Assembly: GCA_021806045.1 (NCBI GenBank)
Contig: JAJZDI010000001.1
Span: 256,518-320,517, forward strand
Reading direction: 5' to 3'
DNA from: Actinomycetes bacterium
GTDB lineage: Bacteria; Actinomycetota; Acidimicrobiia; Acidimicrobiales; RAAP-2
DNA length: 64,000 nucleotides
The position numbers were made by a program, and so were the translations under genes. Position 1 is the stretch's first letter; each line of letters begins with the position of its first letter. The notes under the pieces are model-generated. The model did no database searches. It saw only the letters and a program-made list of their open reading frames with translations, and was not told the DNA's origin. Of the stretch, positions 52,698 to 64,000 are shown in pieces.

Positions 52698-54200
52698 TCA
52701 CAGGTCGTTGCCGGCGTATGACAGGTTGAAGCTCTTGTTGGCCAGCGGGAAGTCCGGGACGATCGTGTCCGCCAGGGCGACCGACAGCGCCGGCCAGGTG
52801 AGGAAGGAGGGGTCGACGACCTTGCAACGAACGACGTGGCCGGCGTCGATCTCGACCCGGTGGACGATCGTCCCCCGCCAGGCCTCGACGATCCCCATAC
52901 CCGAACCGCTTCGTCGGCCCACGTCGCCGGCACTGGCATCGAGCGACCGGACGCTCCCGCCCAGCTCGGCGACGAGCCGGAGCGAGGCGGCGACCTCGCC
53001 GGCGCGGACCGAGAAGCGCGCCAGCACATCGCCGCCCTCCTCGACGATCGGCACCAGGCCGGGCCCGAAGTCGACGAAGGGATGCGCCACCCGGGCATCG
53101 ACCGGGAGCCCCGAGGCCCGGGCGACGACCCCGAGGGCTCCGATCGTCCTGGCGTCGTCGCTGGACAGGAGGGCCGTCCCCGTGAAGCGGTCCATCACCA
53201 CGGTGTTGGACGTGGCCAGCTCGACGAGCTCGTCGACCAGGCCCCCCACCTCGGCGAGTTCCGCCTCGGTGGGAAGCCGGCGCACGGTCGCCGCGCCGGG
53301 CCGGATGGCGCCGCGCAGCAGCCGATGCCCGGTGACCTCGCCGGCCAGGCGCAGCAGTCGCTCACGCAGCGTGAGCGCACGGGCGTGGGCGACGCCGAAG
53401 CCCACGTCGTTGCAGAGGGCACCCAGGTCGGCGACGTGGTTGGTGATCCGCTCGAGCTCGACCACGATCGCCCGCAGCAGCTGCGCGTCCGTCGGGGTCT
53501 CGACGCACAGGGCGTCCTCGACGGCCAGGCAGTAGGCGAGGGTGTGGCCGGCGGCCGTGTCACCCGAGATGCGCTCGGCGAGGACCACGCCGTCGGCGAC
53601 GGCGCGACCTTCGAAGAGGCGCTCGATGCCACGGTGGACGAACCACAGGCGTGCCTTCATCTTGAGGATCGTCTCGCCGACCACGGAGAACCGGAAGTGA
53701 CCGGGCTCGATCAGGCCGGCGTGGACCGGTCCGACGGGGATCTCGTAGACGCCCGGCCCCTCCACGGGGACGAAGGGGAATGGCTCGGCATCGATCAGCA
53801 TGGGCGGCGTCGGACCGGCGTCGCCGCGCATCGGGTGCCAGTGCGGCGGCCAGTGCTGGTGCCGCACGAGCGGGCGCAGGAAGGGGTGGCCGACCGGCTC
53901 GATGCCGAACAGGTCGGCCAGTTCCCGCTCGAAGCGGCTGGCGGGGAAGGACAGGGCGGCGAGTGACGGGACGGCGGGATGGGCCGGGTCCAGCCGGACC
54001 TGCAACTCGACCCGCCGATCGGGCGGCCCGGCGCAGAAGGCGTACACCACCCGCAGGGCGTGCCCGTCGTCGTGCCCGGCGACTAGGGCGAGACGGAAGC
54101 CGGCATGGAGGAGCTCCCGCGCTCGGGTAGGGAGGTCGCCGGTGGCGATGAGCTCGCTGGTGCGCTGCGGCGCGGGGTCCGCCAGCCGGTGGGGCGTCAC
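52698..54200 (-). CDS. hycE: HycE-like large subunit of a hydrogenase-related membrane complex, without Ni-binding cysteines
   Basis: 500 residues. A NuoC-like N-terminal domain (FERELADLFGIEPVGHPFLRPL) is fused to a NuoD/hydrogenase large-subunit domain (GPVHAGLIEPGHFRF, HRGIERLFEGR, VELERITNHVADLG). The two Ni-binding CxxC pairs are replaced: residues 212-215 read SGDT after ERI, and 465-468 read SFLT after DP. It therefore cannot hold a NiFe centre. The length and cysteine loss match M. tuberculosis Rv0087. GTG 54200 overlaps the hycQ stop as GTGA. Last gene of the operon. Confidence 0.93.
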   Translation of the reverse strand: MTPHRLADPAPQRTSELIATGDLPTRARELLHAGFRLALVAGHDDGHALRVVYAFCAGPPDRRVELQVRLDPAHPAVPSLAALSFPASRFERELADLFGIEPVGHPFLRPLVRHQHWPPHWHPMRGDAGPTPPMLIDAEPFPFVPVEGPGVYEIPVGPVHAGLIEPGHFRFSVVGETILKMKARLWFVHRGIERLFEGRAVADGVVLAERISGDTAAGHTLAYCLAVEDALCVETPTDAQLLRAIVVELERITNHVADLGALCNDVGFGVAHARALTLRERLLRLAGEVTGHRLLRGAIRPGAATVRRLPTEAELAEVGGLVDELVELATSNTVVMDRFTGTALLSSDDARTIGALGVVARASGLPVDARVAHPFVDFGPGLVPIVEEGGDVLARFSVRAGEVAASLRLVAELGGSVRSLDASAGDVGRRSGSGMGIVEAWRGTIVHRVEIDAGHVVRCKVVDPSFLTWPALSVALADTIVPDFPLANKSFNLSYAGNDL

Positions 54201-55660
54201 CTGACGACGACCCGGGCAGCGGCGGCGAGCAGCGACTGGAGCGGCCATGCGGACAGCCCGAAGGCGGCGCAGGCGACGAGGCCGCCGACGAGCGGGATGC
54301 CGACCAGGCGCGATGTCGCCGAGGGGCGCGCGTCCGGGCCGCCGCCGAGGAGGAGGTGGCGCCCGTGCGCCATCACGGCGGCGAAGATGACGGCCATCGC
54401 CAGGAGCGACAGACCCGCTGCCCAGCCGAGCCCTACCGCCAGCTCGCCCCGGATCATGTTGAGCTCGCTCACGAACAGGCTGAAGGGCGGCAGGCCCAAC
54501 AGGGCGACGAGGCCGAAGCCGAAGATCCCGCCGAGCAGCGGCCGGCGGGCAAGGAGGGCGGCGATGCCGTCGATCTCACTGGTGCCTTCGACCAGGAGGA
54601 TCTCGCCCGAAGCGAGGAAGAGCACGGCCTTGGCCAGTCCGTGGCCAAGGATGTGCAGCAGGACGGCGGCGATGGCGAGCGTGGTGCCTGCGGCCGCGCC
54701 CAGGGCGATGAGGCCCATGTGCTCGATGCTGTGGTACGCCAGCATCCGCTTGACGTCGCGCTGCGTGAGGAGCAGCGAGGCGGCCACGAGGAGGGACGCG
54801 AGGCCCATGATGACGAAGAGGGTCCGGGTGTAGCCGGGACCGAGCGCCCCGTCAGCGACCACTTTGAAGCGCAGGAGCGCGTAGAAGGCGACGGTGAGCA
54901 GCACGCCCGACATGAGGGCCGACACGGGGGCGGGTGCCTGGCTGTGGGCGTCGGGCAGCCAGCTGTGCATGGGGGCGAGCCCGACCTTGGTGCCGTAGCC
55001 CAGGACCAGGAGCGCCATGGCGAGGCGCACGACGGCCGGATCGAGGTGGTGCGATGCGTGCACGAGCGAGGTCCAGTCGAGCACGGAGGCCCCCGTCGGG
55101 TGACCGGGCACGTGGAGGGCGGCGAAGTAGACGAGCACGGTGCCGAGGAACGCCAGCGCGATGCCGACCGAGCAGATGAGCACGTACTTCCACGAGGCCT
55201 CGAGAGCCTTGTCGCTCCGGCGGTGGCCGACGAGGAAGGTGGTGGCGATCGTCGTCGCCTCGACCGCCACCCACAGTGCCCCGAGGTTGGCGGCGAGGAC
55301 CGCCGCCAGCATGCAGGTGATGAACGCCTGGACGAGGAAGCTGTAGAGCGAGGCGTGCCGCGCGCCGTGCCCGCCGCGGGCGATCTCCGCCTCGAGGTAG
55401 CGGATCGACTGGATCGACGCCAGGAGCGAGATGACGCCGATCACCACGACCATGAAGGCGCTCAGGGCGTCGGCGCGGAGGGCGCCGTCGAGTCCGCTGG
55501 CCACGTGGTGCCGGCTGGCCTGGGCGGCGAGGGCGATGCCGAGGCCGAGCACGACGGCGTCGGCCAGTGCCATCGTCCAACCGACGGCGCGGCGCCAGGG
55601 GAGCGCGGCGGCCAGGACGCCGGCGGCCAGCGGGACGGCGAGGAGTGCGGACACGATCAT
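54197..55660 (-). CDS. hycQ: Antiporter-like membrane subunit (HycQ/HyfF type)
   Basis: 487 residues, about 14 membrane helices, NuoL/M/N family. The proton-channel Glu is in LWVAVEATTIAT and the Lys in GYGTKVGLAPMHSWLPDAH; LSGVLLTVAFYALLR-type helices follow. It should pump or conduct ions in the complex. ATG 55660 overlaps the hycP stop by one base. Equivalent to Rv0086. Confidence 0.92.
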   Translation of the reverse strand: MIVSALLAVPLAAGVLAAALPWRRAVGWTMALADAVVLGLGIALAAQASRHHVASGLDGALRADALSAFMVVVIGVISLLASIQSIRYLEAEIARGGHGARHASLYSFLVQAFITCMLAAVLAANLGALWVAVEATTIATTFLVGHRRSDKALEASWKYVLICSVGIALAFLGTVLVYFAALHVPGHPTGASVLDWTSLVHASHHLDPAVVRLAMALLVLGYGTKVGLAPMHSWLPDAHSQAPAPVSALMSGVLLTVAFYALLRFKVVADGALGPGYTRTLFVIMGLASLLVAASLLLTQRDVKRMLAYHSIEHMGLIALGAAAGTTLAIAAVLLHILGHGLAKAVLFLASGEILLVEGTSEIDGIAALLARRPLLGGIFGFGLVALLGLPPFSLFVSELNMIRGELAVGLGWAAGLSLLAMAVIFAAVMAHGRHLLLGGGPDARPSATSRLVGIPLVGGLVACAAFGLSAWPLQSLLAAAARVVVR

Positions 55661-56319
55661 CAGTCGTGGAGCTCCCGGAGCTGGTCGAGGTCGACGTGGC
55701 CGAATCGTGCCCGCATCGTGGTGGCGAGGACCTGGAGCACGACCACGACCAGGAGGACGTCCAGGGAGGTACCCAGCTCGACGAGGAGCGGCACCCCGGC
55801 AGTGAGGAGGAACGCCAGGAGGGCCACCCCGTTGTCGACGAGCAGGAGGCCGACGATCTGGGAGACGGCCTTCCTCCGGGTGACGAGCACGAAGAACCCG
55901 ACGAGCACGGTGGCGAGCCCGAGCGGTGCCAGGCGGGTGAGCGGATCGGGCATGAGCGCGGTGAGCTGGCCGGCCACCAGGTAGGAGAGGATGACGAGGC
56001 CGGCGGCGGCGACGAGGGAAGCGGGGACGTTCACGAGGGGCGCCGTTTCCCGGCTCCCGGGGTCGGCGCGCACCACCCGTGCGAGCAGGCCGGGGATGAC
56101 CAGCCCCTTGGTGACCAGCACGACGCCGGCGACGACGCCCAGGCCGACGTCGCCGCCGGTGGCGGCGAGGATGGCGGCCAGGGCCGCCAGCGCGATGCCC
56201 TGGAGCGCCAGCACGGAGGTGAGGGAGCGCAGGTCCTTCCGCCAGAGGGCGAGGATGGCACCGGCGAGCACCACCCCGGCAGCCAGCTCCACCCCGTCGA
56301 GCGCAGCACCGGAGATCAT
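55660..56319 (-). CDS. hycP: HycP/HyfE-like membrane subunit
   Basis: 219 residues with about six to seven membrane helices; Rv0085 has 220. The helix with GLLLVDNGVALLAFLL resembles the NuoK-like part of HyfE. ATG 56319 overlaps the hycD stop as ATGA. Confidence 0.88.
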   Translation of the reverse strand: MISGAALDGVELAAGVVLAGAILALWRKDLRSLTSVLALQGIALAALAAILAATGGDVGLGVVAGVVLVTKGLVIPGLLARVVRADPGSRETAPLVNVPASLVAAAGLVILSYLVAGQLTALMPDPLTRLAPLGLATVLVGFFVLVTRRKAVSQIVGLLLVDNGVALLAFLLTAGVPLLVELGTSLDVLLVVVVLQVLATTMRARFGHVDLDQLRELHD

Positions 56320-57302
56320 CGGGCCACCAGTCCGGTCGTCACGGCCACCACGGCGAGGACGAAGCCGCCGGCCAGGAGCTCGGGAACCCGGAAGAGCCGG
56401 ACCTTCGCCGTCGAGACCTCGACGAGGGCGATGAGCGTGGCGATGGCTGCGGCCTTGGCGCCGAGGGCGACGAGCCCGACCAGGACGGCGAGCGGCCCGC
56501 CGGACCCGCCGATGCCCCAGGGGAAGAACAGGTTGGCTACCAGCCCGAGCAGCAGGCCGAGGCGCATCGCCTCGCCCACAGTGACGAGGGCGAGGTCGGT
56601 TCCTGCGTACTCGAGGATCATCGCCTCGTGGATCATGGTGAGCTCGAGGTGCGTCGAGGGGTTGTCGACCGGGATCCGGCCCGTCTCGGCGATGACCACG
56701 ACGACGAGGGCGACGAGGGCGAGGAGCCGCTGCGGGCTGGCCAGCCATCCGGGGTGGGCCAGGCTGGCGGCGACGATGTCCGGCAGGTTGGAGGAGTGGG
56801 CCTGGACGGCGAGGGCCAGGATCGCGACGAGTAGTGCCGGTTCGGAGATGGCGCCGATGGTCATGGCCCGGCTCGATCCCATGCCGCCGAACGCGGTGCC
56901 GGCATCGAGGCCGCCGAGGGCGAGCGCGACCGATCCCATGAGCAGGAGGTAGACGACGACGAAGACGTCGGCGCCACCTGCGATGGCAGGTCGGGTGGTG
57001 ACGAGCGGGGTGACGGCGGCACCCACCGCACCGGAGGCGACGAGCACGAGCGGCGCCAGGCCGGAAACGGCGCTCGTGTGCTCGGCCCGGATGGCCTCCT
57101 TCCGCATCAGCTTGCGAAGGTCCCGGAGCCCCTGGGTGATGGGAGGACCGACGCGGCCCTCGGCGCGGGCCCGCACCTTGCCCATCAGCCCGAGCAGCAG
57201 CGGGCCGCCGGCGGCGACGGCGGCCACCTGGAGGACCGATGCGCCGATCCTGGCCCAGATGCCCGGGCTCGCGGCGCCGAGGGCGGCGAGTGTCGCGGTC
57301 AC
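56316..57302 (-). CDS. hycD: NuoH/HycD-like membrane subunit
   Basis: 328 residues, about eight helices. Loop signatures are RAEGRVGPPITQGLRDL, ETGRIPVDNPSTHLELTMIH and EAMILEYAG, the charged loops that form the quinone-side interface in complex I. Links the peripheral arm to the antiporter subunits. GTG 57302 overlaps the hyfB-like stop as GTGA. Equivalent to Rv0084. Confidence 0.92.
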   Translation of the reverse strand: MTATLAALGAASPGIWARIGASVLQVAAVAAGGPLLLGLMGKVRARAEGRVGPPITQGLRDLRKLMRKEAIRAEHTSAVSGLAPLVLVASGAVGAAVTPLVTTRPAIAGGADVFVVVYLLLMGSVALALGGLDAGTAFGGMGSSRAMTIGAISEPALLVAILALAVQAHSSNLPDIVAASLAHPGWLASPQRLLALVALVVVVIAETGRIPVDNPSTHLELTMIHEAMILEYAGTDLALVTVGEAMRLGLLLGLVANLFFPWGIGGSGGPLAVLVGLVALGAKAAAIATLIALVEVSTAKVRLFRVPELLAGGFVLAVVAVTTGLVAR

Positions 57303-59311
57303 GCCAGGACGACCAGGATCAGCACCAACGCGGCGAAGCCGAAGGCGAGGTAGCGGTGCACGCTGCCGTTGGGGACCCGCCGGGCCAGGCGCCCCCACCA
57401 GGAGACGGCACCGATGACGGGCCGGTAGGCGACGCGCTCGACGGCGTCGTCCACGCGCTGGTAGTAGGAGACGGCCTGGGTGACGTAGGCCGACTCGACC
57501 GTGTGGGTGACCTCGAGGTCGCGGTCGGGTCGCAGCACGTCGGCGAAGACCCGCTGGAGCGGCTCGGCGAAGGACGTCGCGGTGATCTCCATGCGGGCCG
57601 TCTGCAGCTCCCGCCCGCACCCCCACGCCTCGGCCCGCCGGGGTCGGCGGAGCTCGGCCCGCCGGGGGGCGAGCCGGATCACACCCCACGCCACGATGAT
57701 CCCGGCAAGGAGACCCTCGACGAGCAACGCCGGCTCGATGGCGCCGTGCAGGGAGGCGAGATCGAGCCCGAGACCAACCCGGAGCGTGGTCGGCGCCCCC
57801 CCGGCGAAGCCGGCTGCCGCTGCCCGGTCGAGTGCGGGGAGGGCCACGCCGGGGACGACGCCGAGCACCACACAACCGCCGGCGAGGAGGCCCATGCCGG
57901 CCAGCATCGAGGGCCCGACCTCCCTGGCACCGCCGGCGCGCTCGGAGCGGGGCTGGCCGAGGAACCCGACCCCGAGCGCCTTCACGAACGCCGTCGCCGT
58001 GAGCCCGCCGGTGATGGCCAGGGCGGCGACTCCGGCCAGCAGGGTGGCATCGGTGACGGCGGACCGGGAGGCGAAGCCGTGCAGGAGCCCTTCGAGGAGG
58101 AGCCACTCGCTGGCGAACCCGTTCAGACCGGGAAGCGCCCCGATCGAGAGTGCCCCGATCCCGAACAAGGCGGTCACCGCCGGCATGCGGCGGGCGAGCC
58201 CACCCAGGCGGTCGAGATCGCGCGTCCCCGTCGCGTGCTGGACGGCCCCGGCCCCGAAGAACAGGAGACCTTTGAAGAGCGCGTGGTTCACCAGATGGAA
58301 CAGCGCGGCGAGGAGCACCAGCCCGGCCAGCATCCGCTCACCGCCGGCTGCAAGCGCGCCGGCCGCCCCGACCCCGATGAGGACGAGGCCCATGTTGTCG
58401 ACCGTCGAGTACGCCAGGAGGCGCTTGGTGTCGGTGCTGGCCGCGGCGTGGACGGCACCGAAGAATGCCGACACCACGCCGAGGGCGGCGACCACCACCC
58501 ACCACCATGACTGCCCGCCACCGAGGAGGACTCCGCCGACGCGCAGGATGCCGTAGACGCCGAGGTTGACCATCGCTCCCGACATGAGCGCGGAGACGGG
58601 GCTCGGAGCCTCCGGATGGGCGCGGGGCAGCCAGACGTGCAACGGCACGGCCCCGGCCTTGGAGGCGAAGCCGATCAGGGTGAGGACGAAGACGGTGGAC
58701 GACAACGGCACCGAGAGTCGCCCACGATGGGAGGCGATGGTCGCGAACGTCTGCCCCCCGGCGTGGTCGGCCAGCAGCACCAGGCCGAGGAGGATCGCGG
58801 CAGCACCGATGTGGGTCATCGCCGCGTACCACTGGGCGGCGTCGCGCGTCTCAGGTCGGCGGCGGTGATCGGTGAGCAGGGCGAGCAGCGACGTCAACGC
58901 CATGAGCTCCCAGGCGACCATGAAGGTCGCCACGCTCGCCGCCGCCGGGACGAGGAGCAAGGTCGCGAGGAACGCGGGGAGCATCGCCGTGGCGGTCCTG
59001 CTCGGCGTCGCGTGGGCCCCGTAGCCGACGGAGTACCACGAGGCCGCCAGCCCCACGCCGGCGGTGGTGGCGATGAACAGGGCCCCCAGCGGGTCGAGGG
59101 AGAGGTCGACGCCGGTGAGGGGAAGGACCTGTGCTGTGTGCAGGCCGGAGGTGTGACCGGAGACCAGGACGTGGACGGCGCCGACGAGCACGGCCACGCA
59201 CGCCGCCGCGCTCAGCGCGGCTGCACCGGGGAGGCGGTGCCGGTCGGGCAGGACGGCGCCGACGAGGGCGGCGACGACGGCGATGCCGATGCCGATGAGG
59301 TACGCCGTCAT
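57299..59311 (-). CDS. Large antiporter-like membrane subunit (HyfB type)
   Basis: 670 residues, about 15 membrane helices. Conserved Glu in FMVAWELMALTS, Lys in GFASKAGAVPLHVWLPRAH and a HALFKGLLFFGAGA helix mark it as a NuoL/HyfB proton-translocating subunit. A C-terminal helical extension precedes a last membrane helix. Start is ATG 59311, or TTG 59317, which overlaps the upstream stop as TTGA. Equivalent to Rv0083 (640 residues). Confidence 0.92.
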   Translation of the reverse strand: MTAYLIGIGIAVVAALVGAVLPDRHRLPGAAALSAAACVAVLVGAVHVLVSGHTSGLHTAQVLPLTGVDLSLDPLGALFIATTAGVGLAASWYSVGYGAHATPSRTATAMLPAFLATLLLVPAAASVATFMVAWELMALTSLLALLTDHRRRPETRDAAQWYAAMTHIGAAAILLGLVLLADHAGGQTFATIASHRGRLSVPLSSTVFVLTLIGFASKAGAVPLHVWLPRAHPEAPSPVSALMSGAMVNLGVYGILRVGGVLLGGGQSWWWVVVAALGVVSAFFGAVHAAASTDTKRLLAYSTVDNMGLVLIGVGAAGALAAGGERMLAGLVLLAALFHLVNHALFKGLLFFGAGAVQHATGTRDLDRLGGLARRMPAVTALFGIGALSIGALPGLNGFASEWLLLEGLLHGFASRSAVTDATLLAGVAALAITGGLTATAFVKALGVGFLGQPRSERAGGAREVGPSMLAGMGLLAGGCVVLGVVPGVALPALDRAAAAGFAGGAPTTLRVGLGLDLASLHGAIEPALLVEGLLAGIIVAWGVIRLAPRRAELRRPRRAEAWGCGRELQTARMEITATSFAEPLQRVFADVLRPDRDLEVTHTVESAYVTQAVSYYQRVDDAVERVAYRPVIGAVSWWGRLARRVPNGSVHRYLAFGFAALVLILVVLA

Positions 59312-59313
59312 GC

Positions 59314-59808
59314 TCAACGTCCGGTGAGCCCCCGCAGCGCCTCGATGATCACCGGGGGCTCAGGCGGGCAACCGGGGATCTCCACGTCGACGGGGACGAC
59401 GTCGCCGACCGTCCCGGTCACGCCGTAGGCGCCGGTGAAGACCCCACCGTCCACCGCGCAGTCGCCGCAGGCGATCACGATCCGCGGCCGGGGAACGGCC
59501 TCGAGGGTCGTCCGGAGCGGGGTCGCCATGTTCGTCGTGACCACACCGGTGACGAGCAGGCCGTCGGCGTGCCGGGGCGAGGCCACCAGGCGGACCCCGA
59601 AGCGCCCGGCGTCCCAGACCGGCGAGAAGGCCTGGGCGATCTCCACCTCGCAGCCGTTGCAGGAGCCTGCGTCGACGTGGCGCAACTGTGCCGACCCCGG
59701 GAACCGGGCTGGTGCCGCAGTGCCTGGGGGGGCGACTGCCTCGGTGACCGGATGCCCGCGTAGGGCAGCGAGCAGGGGGAGGCGACGCACAGTTGACGAA
59801 GTTATCAT
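59314..59808 (-). CDS. NuoB/hydrogenase small-subunit-like iron-sulfur protein
   Basis: 164 residues. Likely [4Fe-4S] ligands are in GSCNGCEVEI, ACGDCAV and PGCPPEP, so the proximal cluster appears complete. It would carry electrons between the cysteine-less large subunit and an unknown donor or acceptor. ATG 59808 lies inside a perfect dyad. First structural gene; equivalent to Rv0082 (159 residues). Confidence 0.9.
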   Translation of the reverse strand: MITSSTVRRLPLLAALRGHPVTEAVAPPGTAAPARFPGSAQLRHVDAGSCNGCEVEIAQAFSPVWDAGRFGVRLVASPRHADGLLVTGVVTTNMATPLRTTLEAVPRPRIVIACGDCAVDGGVFTGAYGVTGTVGDVVPVDVEIPGCPPEPPVIIEALRGLTGR

Positions 59809-59821
59809 GCAGTCACATGAT
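59804..59821. promoter_or_regulatory. Operator-like dyad ATCATG-N6-CATGAT at the start of the complex operon
   Basis: Perfect 6+6 inverted repeat; its left arm covers the start codon (59806-59808) and its right arm the likely -10 region on the minus strand (TCATGT, 6 bases before ATG). It lies 119 bases downstream of the arsR stop, and the ArsR product is the obvious candidate ligand. Confidence 0.6.
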
Positions 59822-59939
59822 CAAGTACTCCCGGATGTCCACGGCGATCGACGGGACGGTCACGCCGCTGGCCACGTGGGCGCGGGGCGACGTGCAGGGG
59901 TGACGGAGGATCGCGCCTGGCGGCGCGCGGACCGGGCTG

Positions 59940-60311
59940 TCAGCGGGCCGAGCGCCGTCGAGGAGGCGCCGTGCGTTCCACGAACTCCAGGCCCTCGAGC
60001 TCGGCCAGGAGCTGGCGGGATTCGGCCAGCGTGCTCGTGAGGATCGACTTCGCCACCTCGAGCAGCTCGAAGATCCGGGGGTCGGTGACCGAGTAGAGGA
60101 CCGTCGACCCCACCTTGCGGCTCTGCAGAACGTTGGCTCGCCGGAGGATCCCGAGTTGCTGGGACAGGTGTGACGCCTCGAGACCGACCTCGGGGATCAG
60201 CTCGCCCACCGACCGCTCCCCGTCCCGGAGCAGCTCCAGCACCCGGATGCGCGCCGGGTGGGCCAGCGTCTTGAAGAAGTCCGCCTTCACCTGGTAGATC
60301 GGCTGGGTCAC
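59940..60311 (-). CDS. ArsR-family regulator (Rv0081-like)
   Basis: 123 residues; Rv0081 has 114. Winged helix-turn-helix: FFKTLAHPARIRVLELL, GERSVGELIPEVGLEASHLSQQLGIL (recognition helix) and VGSTVLYSVTDPRIFELL. The metal-sensing ELCVC-type cysteines are absent; the protein has no Cys, so it is not a classical metal sensor. It precedes the complex operon on the same strand, as in M. tuberculosis, where Rv0081 controls the locus and belongs to the hypoxia network. GTG 60311 has GGAGG about 10 bases upstream. Confidence 0.88.
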   Translation of the reverse strand: MTQPIYQVKADFFKTLAHPARIRVLELLRDGERSVGELIPEVGLEASHLSQQLGILRRANVLQSRKVGSTVLYSVTDPRIFELLEVAKSILTSTLAESRQLLAELEGLEFVERTAPPRRRSAR

Positions 60312-60586
60312 CGACCCCAGTCCTCCTCGACCGGTGGAACTGGTGACTGGCCGGAGCACCCACCATCGGGCATGCCCGCACGTGACGAACGCATCAACTC
60401 GTGAAGGTATCAGCTGTGTCCGGCCGGCCGCCCATGGACAGCGGCGTGGAACGCGGGGGCGAGCGTCCGGCAGGAGCGGTACCGTCGCGATCACGAGAGG
60501 ATCCGAAGCGCGATCCGGGCAAAGCGTCGCCAGCGCACCGTATCGGCGCTGAACGTGAACCCGTCCCGCCGGGAAGGGGATTCGAG

Positions 60587-61336
60587 ATGGTCCAGCCGGT
60601 CTCCATGCCGTGGTCGACGCCGGTCTTCCCCCCGCCACCCCATGCGTGGAACGGGGTGCGGACGGCGGTCTTCCCCTTCGCCATCGATGTCGACGCCGTG
60701 CGGGCCGTCCTGCCGCCGGCACTCGAAGCGGCGGAGGGGGTTGGCATGGTCGCGCTCCTCTCCTATCCGTGGGGAGCGAACATCCGCATCCACCCCTTCA
60801 ACGAGGCGGTCGTCCTCGTTCCCGCGCGCTGCAACGGCCAGCTCGGCACCTACGTCCCCTTCATCTACGTCACGACCGACGAGGCCCTCATCGCCGGGCG
60901 CGAAGCGGCCGGCTGGCCGAAGAAGCTGGCCGAGATCACCTGGGAGCGCGATGGCGATCGCGTCCGGGTGGCGGTGGTGAGGTGGGGGAGGACGCTGCTC
61001 GCATTCGACGGTGAGGTGAACGTGGACCTCCCCGCGGATGCCGACCTCGCCGGGCTCGCCGGGCTCGCCGGGGAGCCCGTCCCCACCTTCAACTACAAGC
61101 TGGTCCCCGGCCCTGGGGACGAGATCGAAGTCGAGGAGGTCACCGCCACGACGCTCGAGATCGTTCCGAGCGCGATCGAGGTCGGCATGGGCACCCTCGT
61201 GGCCGCATCGTCCGAGGACGACCCGGTGGCATCCGTTGTGCCGTCGGCCGGGGGCCCCTTCGCCGCCCTGGTGTCCGACAACACGATCCCCTGCGGGACG
61301 GTGGTCCACCGGGTCGACGGGCGGGTGCGGCGATGA
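60587..61336 (+). CDS. Acetoacetate decarboxylase family protein
   Basis: 249 residues. The Schiff-base Lys is in REAAGWPKKLAEI, the KK pair typical of true decarboxylases. PYVTTDEALIAGRE-like and VPTFNYKLVPGP blocks support the fold. It may convert acetoacetate to acetone and CO2, or act on a related beta-keto acid. ATG 60587 has AAGGGGA 7 bases upstream; the frame is open to 60401 but non-homologous. The stop overlaps the dehydrogenase start (ATGA). Confidence 0.85.
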   Translation: MVQPVSMPWSTPVFPPPPHAWNGVRTAVFPFAIDVDAVRAVLPPALEAAEGVGMVALLSYPWGANIRIHPFNEAVVLVPARCNGQLGTYVPFIYVTTDEALIAGREAAGWPKKLAEITWERDGDRVRVAVVRWGRTLLAFDGEVNVDLPADADLAGLAGLAGEPVPTFNYKLVPGPGDEIEVEEVTATTLEIVPSAIEVGMGTLVAASSEDDPVASVVPSAGGPFAALVSDNTIPCGTVVHRVDGRVRR

Positions 61337-62529
61337 CCGATCTCGAGCTCGACGCCGCGCACCTCGAGGCCCGGGAGTGGGCACGGGCGTTCGCCGCCCG
61401 GTCCATCACACCGCGTGCCCTCCTCCTCGACGAGGACCCCGGCTCGCCGGAACGGGACGGCCTCCTCCGCGAGGCCGCCCATGCAGGGTTGATCGGGCTG
61501 TCCCTGCCCGAGGAGTGGGGCGGCAGCGGCGTCGACCCGGTGGGGGCGATGGTCGTCACCGAGGAGCTGGCGGCCGCGTGCGCCGGGTGCGCGGTGCTGA
61601 TCGGAGCGACCGCCCTCGGACTGTTGCCGATCGTCGCCACCCTGGACGCGAGCCTGGTGGAGCGCCTGGTGCGACCGCTCGCCGCGTCGTGGTCGACGGA
61701 CACGCCACGTCTGGCCGCCTTGGCGGCCACCGAGCCCGACATGGGCTCGGACTTCATCCAGGGTCACCCGGCCGGCCGGCCCCGCACCACTGCGGTCAAG
61801 GAAGGTGACCGCTACGTCGTCAACGGGCGCAAGGTCTTCATCTCCAACGGATCGCTGGCCAGTATGGTCACCGTCTTCGCCTCTCTCGACCCGTCGAAGC
61901 CGATCCGTGACCACATGGTCTGCCTGGCCGTGCCGACCGGCACCCCCGGCTTCGCAGTGGGGCAGGTCTTCGACAAGATGGGCCAGCGAGCCTCACCGGC
62001 CGTGGAGCTGGTCTTCGACGACGTCGTGGTCCCCGAGGACCACCGGGTGGGGGACGACGGGGCAGCGTGGGAGCTGAACCGGTTGGTCATGGTGATGAGC
62101 CGGCCCGGGGTGGCCGCCATCGCCCTAGGGATCGCCCGTGCCGCCTACGAGCACGCCCTGACCTATGCAGAGGCCCGTGTCCAGGGCGGCCGACCCATCG
62201 TCGGCCACCAGGCGACGCAGCTCGCGCTGGCAGACATGGCGACCCGGGTCGAGGCCGCACGCCACCTGGTCGTCGCCGCCGCCCGGTCGTTCGCCGCCGG
62301 GCGACCGAGCCTCAAGCTGTCGTCGATGGCCAAGACGTTCGCGTCGGACGCCGCGGTGGCCAACGCCCTCGACGCCATCCAGATCCTGGGCGGCATCGGG
62401 TACATGCGTGAGTCCGGCGTCGAGAAGCTGCTGCGTGACGCCAAGCTGACCCAGATCTACGAGGGCACCAACCAGATCAACCGGTTCGAGATGATGGAGG
62501 CGATCGCCGCCGAGCGGCGCCAAGGCTGA
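61333..62529 (+). CDS. Acyl-CoA dehydrogenase
   Basis: 398 residues. FAD and substrate motifs: GLSLPEEWGGSGVDP, ALAATEPDMGSDF, VNGRKVFISNGS, and the catalytic Glu in IYEGTNQINRFEMM. LGGIGYMRESGVEKLLRDAK is the C-terminal signature. Oxidises an acyl-CoA to the enoyl-CoA. Coupling to the decarboxylase gene suggests one catabolic route for a short or branched acid; the substrate is unknown. Confidence 0.93.
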   Translation: MTDLELDAAHLEAREWARAFAARSITPRALLLDEDPGSPERDGLLREAAHAGLIGLSLPEEWGGSGVDPVGAMVVTEELAAACAGCAVLIGATALGLLPIVATLDASLVERLVRPLAASWSTDTPRLAALAATEPDMGSDFIQGHPAGRPRTTAVKEGDRYVVNGRKVFISNGSLASMVTVFASLDPSKPIRDHMVCLAVPTGTPGFAVGQVFDKMGQRASPAVELVFDDVVVPEDHRVGDDGAAWELNRLVMVMSRPGVAAIALGIARAAYEHALTYAEARVQGGRPIVGHQATQLALADMATRVEAARHLVVAAARSFAAGRPSLKLSSMAKTFASDAAVANALDAIQILGGIGYMRESGVEKLLRDAKLTQIYEGTNQINRFEMMEAIAAERRQG

Positions 62530-62634: not shown

Positions 62635-64000
62635 ATGGGGGGACTGGGGAGCCGAACGCGGGCCGTTGCCCGCCGCTCATGCACGGTGGCCGTCGGGTTG
62701 GCCACGCTGGCCTCGGTCGCCGGCGTCACGGTAGTGGCCGGGCCGCCAGCGGCGATGGCCGCCACGGCCACGGTGGCCACGTGCAGCGGCTCGGGCTCCG
62801 GGTCCCTGCCGGCCGCGGTGGCAGCGGCGTCCCCCGGTGACACGATCGACGTCACCGTGCACTGCACGTCGACGTCCCCCATCGTCCTGACGCAGGCACT
62901 GTCGATCACCGGGAACCTGGCCATCGTGGGCCCGGGTGCGGCCGACCTGTACGTGAGTGGCGGTGGCACCGTCCAGGTGGTGGACGTCTCCTCGGGCGCG
63001 ACCGTCACCATCTCGGGGATGACCATCGAGGACGGCCAGGCCCCGTCCGGATCGAACGGCGGTGGCATCGTCAACGGCGGGTCCCTCACACTGACCGACT
63101 GTGTCGTGACCGGCAATCATGCCGGCAACGGCAGCAACGGGCTCGCCGGCGCACCCGGCGCTACCGGCCCTGGTGCAGCCGGCGGCGACGGGGGAACCGG
63201 CGGATCGGGTGGCGGCATCTACGACACGGGGACACTGCACCTCGTCGACAGCACGGTGTCGGGCAACGGCGCCGGCAACGGTGGCAACGGCGGTGCCGGT
63301 GGTAACGGCGGAAGTGCCATCGCCGCCGGTGCCGGGCCGGCGAATACGGGCGGTGTTGGCGGTGCGGGCGGCAACGGCGCGCCGGGCGGGTCGGGGGGCG
63401 GTATCTACGCCACCGGAGCCGTCACGCTCACGAGCAGCACCGTGGCGGACAACGCAGCCGGCAACGGAGGAAGCGCCGGTAACGGTGGCAACGGTGGCAA
63501 CGGCCAGGCCGGTACACAGGGCCTCGCGTCAGGAGCGTCCGGCGGGGCGGGAGGTCCCGGCGGTCCCGGCGGGCTCGGCGGCAGCGGCGCGCCGGGCGGA
63601 TCGGGTGGCGGCATCTACGGCACGGGTACCATCACCCTCGCGGCCAGCACCGTGGCGGGGAACCGCGCCGGCAACGGCGGCATCGCCGGCGACAGCGGGA
63701 ACGGCGGCGACGGCGGTGTCGGCGGCATGGGGGCGGTCGGGACGGCGGGCCCCGGTGGCAACGGCGGTGGTGGGGGCAACGGCGGTGCCGGCGCGCAGGG
63801 CACGGCCGGCGGCGCCGGCGGCGCCGGCGGTGGCATCTACAGCAGCACCTCCCTCGACGTCCATGACGGGACCCTGTCGGGGAACACCAGCGGCAACGGC
63901 GGCGCGGGCGGGAACGGCGGGAACGGCGGGAACGGCGCGGACGGAGGTGCAGGAGGCGCGGGGGCACCCGGTCAGGCCACCGCCGCGGCGGGTGCCGGCG
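62635..64000 (+). CDS. Secreted beta-helix protein with PGRS-like glycine/asparagine repeats, 3' end outside the window
   Basis: The frame is open from ATG 62635 to the window end (455 residues seen). A signal peptide (about 15-42, VAVGLATLASVAGVTVVAG) is followed by a right-handed beta-helix start (SITGNLAIVGPGAADLYVSG, TISGMTIEDGQAPSGSNGGG). Then modules of 62-74 residues alternate one helix turn (SGGGIYxTGxxxLxxSTVxGN) with a Gly-Asn-Gly stretch like PE_PGRS proteins. Modules begin near 63205, 63391, 63601 and 63823. Strong GGGGAGG site. Probably a surface or wall protein. Confidence 0.88.
   Translation, partial: MGGLGSRTRAVARRSCTVAVGLATLASVAGVTVVAGPPAAMAATATVATCSGSGSGSLPAAVAAASPGDTIDVTVHCTSTSPIVLTQALSITGNLAIVGPGAADLYVSGGGTVQVVDVSSGATVTISGMTIEDGQAPSGSNGGGIVNGGSLTLTDCVVTGNHAGNGSNGLAGAPGATGPGAAGGDGGTGGSGGGIYDTGTLHLVDSTVSGNGAGNGGNGGAGGNGGSAIAAGAGPANTGGVGGAGGNGAPGGSGGGIYATGAVTLTSSTVADNAAGNGGSAGNGGNGGNGQAGTQGLASGASGGAGGPGGPGGLGGSGAPGGSGGGIYGTGTITLAASTVAGNRAGNGGIAGDSGNGGDGGVGGMGAVGTAGPGGNGGGGGNGGAGAQGTAGGAGGAGGGIYSSTSLDVHDGTLSGNTSGNGGAGGNGGNGGNGADGGAGGAGAPGQATAAAGAG
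63205..64000 (+). repeat. Beta-helix/glycine-rich repeat modules
   Basis: Four modules with unit starts at 63205, 63391, 63601 and 63823 (periods 186, 210 and 222 bp). The GGGIY turn is conserved, while the GNGG stretch between varies in length, consistent with slippage and recombination. Confidence 0.8.

Follow-up and report, generated by a model that had tools for sequence, protein, structure and literature searches.

A predicted operator for an Rv0081-type ArsR regulator at the promoter of an actinobacterial Ehr operon

We analysed a 64-kb stretch of an actinobacterial genome (the window) and found, directly before the first gene of an operon for an energy-converting hydrogenase-related (Ehr) complex, a conserved element at 59793-59808 that is probably the operator of the Rv0081-type ArsR protein encoded just upstream, which would repress the operon locally and control its own gene as well. 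A sequence-only reading had proposed local control by such a non-metal ArsR through a perfect dyad nearby. Its idea of an operator across the promoter is supported by comparison, local control being the best reading, but the particular dyad, the start codon that it was said to cover and its alignment with the -10 box are not supported. The features concerned are as follows.

59793-59808, minus strand: predicted ArsR operator of the Ehr operon, ATGATAACTTCGTCAA (30 of 44 regions, top matrix score, 8 of 8 family core matches)
60382-60397, minus strand: second predicted operator, upstream of arsR, TTGATGCGTTCGTCAC (matrix rank 3, 8.3 bits)
59799-59804, minus strand: probable -10 box TAACTT (TANNNT) within the operator, inferred from sequence and alignment
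59804-59821, no strand: the perfect dyad ATCATG-N6-CATGAT, exact, kept in only 3 of 44 regions
59813-59815, minus strand: putative auxiliary half-site TGA, -8 from the operator (14 of 14 in the clade; same offset in two other promoter sets)
59820-59823, minus strand: putative auxiliary half-site TGAT, -16 from the operator (13 of 14 in the clade; same offset in two other promoter sets)
60409-60412, minus strand: putative auxiliary half-site TGAT, -16 from the arsR operator (12 of 14 arsR promoters of relatives)
59940-60311, minus strand: arsR, cysteine-free and Rv0081-like, with a GTG start (Pfam HTH_5; nearest structure 6jmi)
59314-59790, minus strand: Ehr small subunit (Oxidored_q6 by Pfam), start re-assigned to GTG 59790-59788 from the conserved start position and codon usage
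52698-59317, minus strand: rest of the Ehr operon, with antiporter-like, NuoH-like and further subunits down to the large subunit (Pfam and sequence)

On the minus strand, the genes read from 59808 downwards encode the Oxidored_q6 small subunit, an antiporter-like and a NuoH-like protein and, further on, the large subunit, which has RISGDT and DPSFLT instead of the RxCGxC and DPCxxC motifs and so lacks the [NiFe] cysteine ligands; this fits an Ehr complex. The arsR gene lies on the same strand just upstream of the operon. Its product carries an HTH_5 domain (36 bits against a cut-off of 22), which places it in the ArsR family, and the nearest solved structure by sequence is Rv0081 of Mycobacterium tuberculosis (6jmi; residues 2-105, E = 1.2e-31), the next one reaching 1.4e-12.

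For the comparison, we sampled small-subunit orthologs and ArsR relatives in the family and the order, and mapped larger regions around them. It turned out that the conserved element is TGAY-N6-RTCA, or TTGA-N8-TCAA in its 16-bp form, with the core TGAT-N6-GTCA at 59794-59807 in the window. It occurs in 30 of 44 orthologous operon upstream regions (shuffles: mean 0.7, maximum 3), a count that, like the others given here, overstates independence, many of the compared sequences being close relatives. In the same 44 regions, each of the other spacings between N0 and N9 yields 0 to 2 matches, while N10 gives 8 and N14 gives 11, and the background of the element is 0.09 per kb. The exact form is missing from 14 regions, some of which have near variants. 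The core TGATAACTTCGTCA is found 8 times in 172 family genomes, each time (8 of 8) at the Ehr operon promoter. Besides, we built a symmetric matrix from 24 TGA-type sites of arsR promoters in mycobacteria and other actinobacteria, with none from the window's own family, and 59793-59808 ranked first in the 64 kb (22.6 bits; runner-up 9.3). Comparison thus establishes the element with its spacing, position, conservation and ArsR linkage as a true site common to relatives as distant as mycobacteria, and it is probably bound by the neighbouring ArsR-type repressor. An FNR-type box was also considered and rejected: FNR half-sites are spaced by 4 bp, and the TTGAT/ATCAA half-sites here stand 6 bp apart. 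A nearly identical element, CATGATACCTTCGTCAAT, was observed at a second, divergent Ehr-like operon (L074, G052:C255:6000-19084; antiporter 33% and large subunit 32% identity), with no ArsR found near it within that stretch.

The dyad of the sequence-only reading is real as a sequence, since ATCATG-N6-CATGAT with 6-bp arms (ATCATGCAGTCACATGAT) stands exactly at 59804-59821. When up to two mismatches were allowed, it was the sole site in the window, where 0.54 are expected by chance; at least one dyad-like site of this kind was present in 42 of 100 shuffles of the window. When the dyad was searched for in relatives, as that reading had suggested, the exact form failed (3 of 44 orthologous upstream regions) and the shifted element TGAY-N6-RTCA was what recurred. 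Shorter-armed forms are kept more often, ATCAT-N8-ATGAT in 12 and ATCA-N10-TGAT in 13 of the 44 regions, in both cases within a single clade throughout. Among the 172 family genomes, the exact dyad occurs at 7 places, of which 2 are at the Ehr operon and 5 are unrelated to it. On this conservation (3 of 44 regions; 2 of 7 family places) the dyad was rejected as the operator. We therefore give very little credence to the explanation that it is itself the ArsR site, covering the start codon ATG 59808, even though its perfect 6-bp arms and the persistence of ATCAT-N8-ATGAT in one clade speak for it: elsewhere in the family the exact form lies mainly at unrelated places, its left arm at that spacing is absent from other clades, and the matrix from other genera scores the 16-mers within it at -9.6 or below. 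Its two arms are also accounted for separately, the left one as part of the auxiliary -16 TGA half-site and the right one by the operator at 59793-59808, which shares one half with the dyad and lies about 12 bp nearer to the gene. A striking perfect dyad can mislead where a less symmetrical conserved site adjoins it.

The placement of the dyad over the start codon and the -10 box has to be revised too. It does overlap ATG 59808-59806 of the longest open reading frame, which is probably not the true start, and the TANNNT box TAACTT (59804-59799) meets it at one base only. When the regions were aligned by the motif, the first clade and most of the others showed a GTG or ATG 3 nt past the element; the exceptions are L132, with 6 nt, and the L136-L139 clade, with a longer leader, and L142 and L152 have variants of the element with an ATG at the same place. 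Within the first clade ATGATAACTTCGTCA hardly varies, and the frame is open from ATG 59808, as would be expected if the gene began there and the stretch were kept as coding for MITSS. This explanation is scarcely credible. Three codons that ATGATAACTTCGTCA would use are almost missing from the operon genes (ATA 0 of 66 Ile, ACT 1 of 91 Thr, TCA 3 of 90 Ser), other clades without that ATG hold the element with a start codon 3 nt after it (6 nt in L132), and the same element also stands before arsR and in mycobacteria. Because of the conserved start spacing and these operon-rare codons, the first Ehr gene probably starts at GTG 59790, a likely correction of its start codon, and the element belongs to the promoter rather than to the coding sequence. 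TAACTT ends 8 nt ahead of this GTG, which would suit a leaderless or nearly leaderless promoter. In one clade, most members also have a TTGACA that lies 18 bp ahead of the first base of the operator.

A second predicted operator stands before arsR itself at 60382-60397, so that an inverted repeat lies in the arsR promoter, as for the Rv0081 type, and the same was seen in relatives. In the whole genome (G000, 3.1 Mb), TGATNNNTTCNTCA occurs at two places only, 59793-59808 and 60382-60397; the pattern was built from these two sites themselves, and its information is the absence of further ones. We also looked for a wider regulon in the same genome with TTGAY-N6-RTCAA at one mismatch, and the 89 sites against 35 in the reversed control were too unspecific to name targets. 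The stretch 60382-60412 is a divergent intergenic one between arsR (60311, minus strand) and an acetoacetate decarboxylase-like gene (about 60587, plus strand), which is followed by an acyl-CoA dehydrogenase gene (61333-62529, plus strand); the arsR operator could also affect these two genes. Further on, an open frame of repetitive, glycine-rich sequence, whose N-terminus resembles a signal (62635-64000, plus strand), continues past the window's end.

Linkage of an Rv0081-type ArsR with the Ehr operon extends across Actinobacteria by sequence comparison. In most relatives from the family and order, ArsR shares a contig with the Ehr genes; it precedes them, is divergent, or comes last, behind the large-subunit gene. 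Of 80 Ehr loci in named genomes, 71 gave an ArsR match. That arsR sits at the operon's far end in many genomes counts against the operator reading. Mycobacterial arsR promoters contain TGATAAATTCTTCA, Acrocarpospora has a perfect TTGAAGAATTCTTCAA, and Amycolatopsis, Kibdelosporangium and others have dyads of the TTGCTAAGGTTAGCAA type. The recognition-helix residue before N/H is Ser in 64 of 64 TGA-type proteins and Ala in 16 of 17 TTGC-type proteins, which on the tree reflects one switch, a single event, and thus one independent pair without statistical weight. Two mycobacterial loci, L167 (Ca. Mycobacterium methanotrophicum) and L174 (M. celatum), show the TTGC type that characterises other actinobacteria, and their arsR is the distal gene of the operon. 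Their ArsR proteins belong to the TTGC lineage and are paired with TTGC operators; therefore, operator type goes with the regulator and not with the host, and it looks like horizontal transfer of an ArsR-operator unit. In seven other loci (L186, L193, L197, L198, L208, L212 and L215) we observed another conserved dyad-like block upstream of arsR, e.g. CTTTAGTAATTGCAGAATTGCTAAAG; the arsR genes there belong to a divergent clade with the recognition helix EPSSLSQHL or similar.

Further TGA half-sites accompany the operator in a regular way. At -16 and -8, TGA is present in 13 of 14 and 14 of 14 operon promoters of the first clade, in 4 of 4 and 4 of 4 of the second, and in 12 of 14 and 11 of 14 arsR promoters of the first clade, while mycobacteria have TGWT at +16 from the operator in 14 of 20. 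Such repeats in 8-bp steps in three promoter sets might belong to another regulator, e.g. a response regulator reading TGA direct repeats, next to which the ArsR gene would be incidental; judging by its title, He et al. 2011 adds MprA and DosR to the regulators of the Rv0081-Rv0088 locus in M. tuberculosis. We regard this as unlikely: no feature is more widespread than the inverted partner TCA at N8, the same element occurs at arsR promoters, its type tracks the ArsR lineage, and Rv0081 reportedly binds the promoter of its own gene (PMC6177252). We tentatively suggest, as a possibility rather than an expectation, that the ordered array TGA-N5-TGA-N5-TGA-N8-TCA holds two cooperative ArsR dimers 16 bp apart, and that the Ser-to-Ala change in the recognition helix accompanied a switch from TTGA to TTGC half-sites in one actinobacterial branch, so that the repressor would travel from genome to genome together with its operator, M. 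celatum being an example.

We infer ArsR binding, repression, the transcription start and the kind of signal from these comparisons. An ArsR dimer would sit on TTGA-N8-TCAA, over the -10 box and the transcription start, and block RNA polymerase at the leaderless or nearly leaderless Ehr promoter; through 60382-60397 this ArsR would repress arsR as well, and the TGA half-sites 8 and 16 bp upstream may, as a guess, hold a weaker second dimer. The ArsR of the window was correctly described as cysteine-free: no Cys was found in the whole protein and no His after residue 48, hence none in the alpha-5 region, and 128 of 131 aligned ArsR parts of relatives have no Cys either. Neither Cys ligands nor a His-rich alpha-5 site, the marks of a metal-sensing ArsR, is present. 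Because of this lack of Cys in the protein and of His in the alpha-5 helix, a metal bound through cysteines or the usual alpha-5 site is unlikely to be the inducing signal; possible inducers include redox, hypoxia or another cue.

In M. tuberculosis, Rv0081 acts as its own repressor by way of an inverted repeat in the rv0081 promoter and is described without a defined metal site (PMC6177252), and PMC6901956, citing He et al. 2011, states that Rv0081 regulates rv0082-rv0087. As in the window, the arsR gene there adjoins an Ehr/Hyc-like operon (Rv0082-Rv0087). Compared with the loci of mycobacteria other than M. tuberculosis covered here, where the site was seen before arsR only, the operon of the window has its own promoter and its own predicted operator besides that of arsR. 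More than 700 ChIP sites are reported for Rv0081 (PMC6177252), whereas the strict pattern in the window's genome gives two sites, both local. The window ArsR also shares by sequence the winged-helix ArsR fold with BigR (the Xylella biofilm growth-associated repressor, 3pqj) and SmtB/CzrA, and by analogy with these dimeric repressors it may act by promoter blocking. BigR-type sensors use a Cys pair and SmtB/CzrA have metal ligands, and in contrast to both the window ArsR has no Cys at all and no His in the alpha-5 region. The refined element, a predicted operator assigned by comparison, is well supported as belonging to a known type of control, and it provides a precise predicted operator for Rv0081-type regulators across Actinobacteria, including the mycobacteria, in which Rv0081 is a hypoxia hub.
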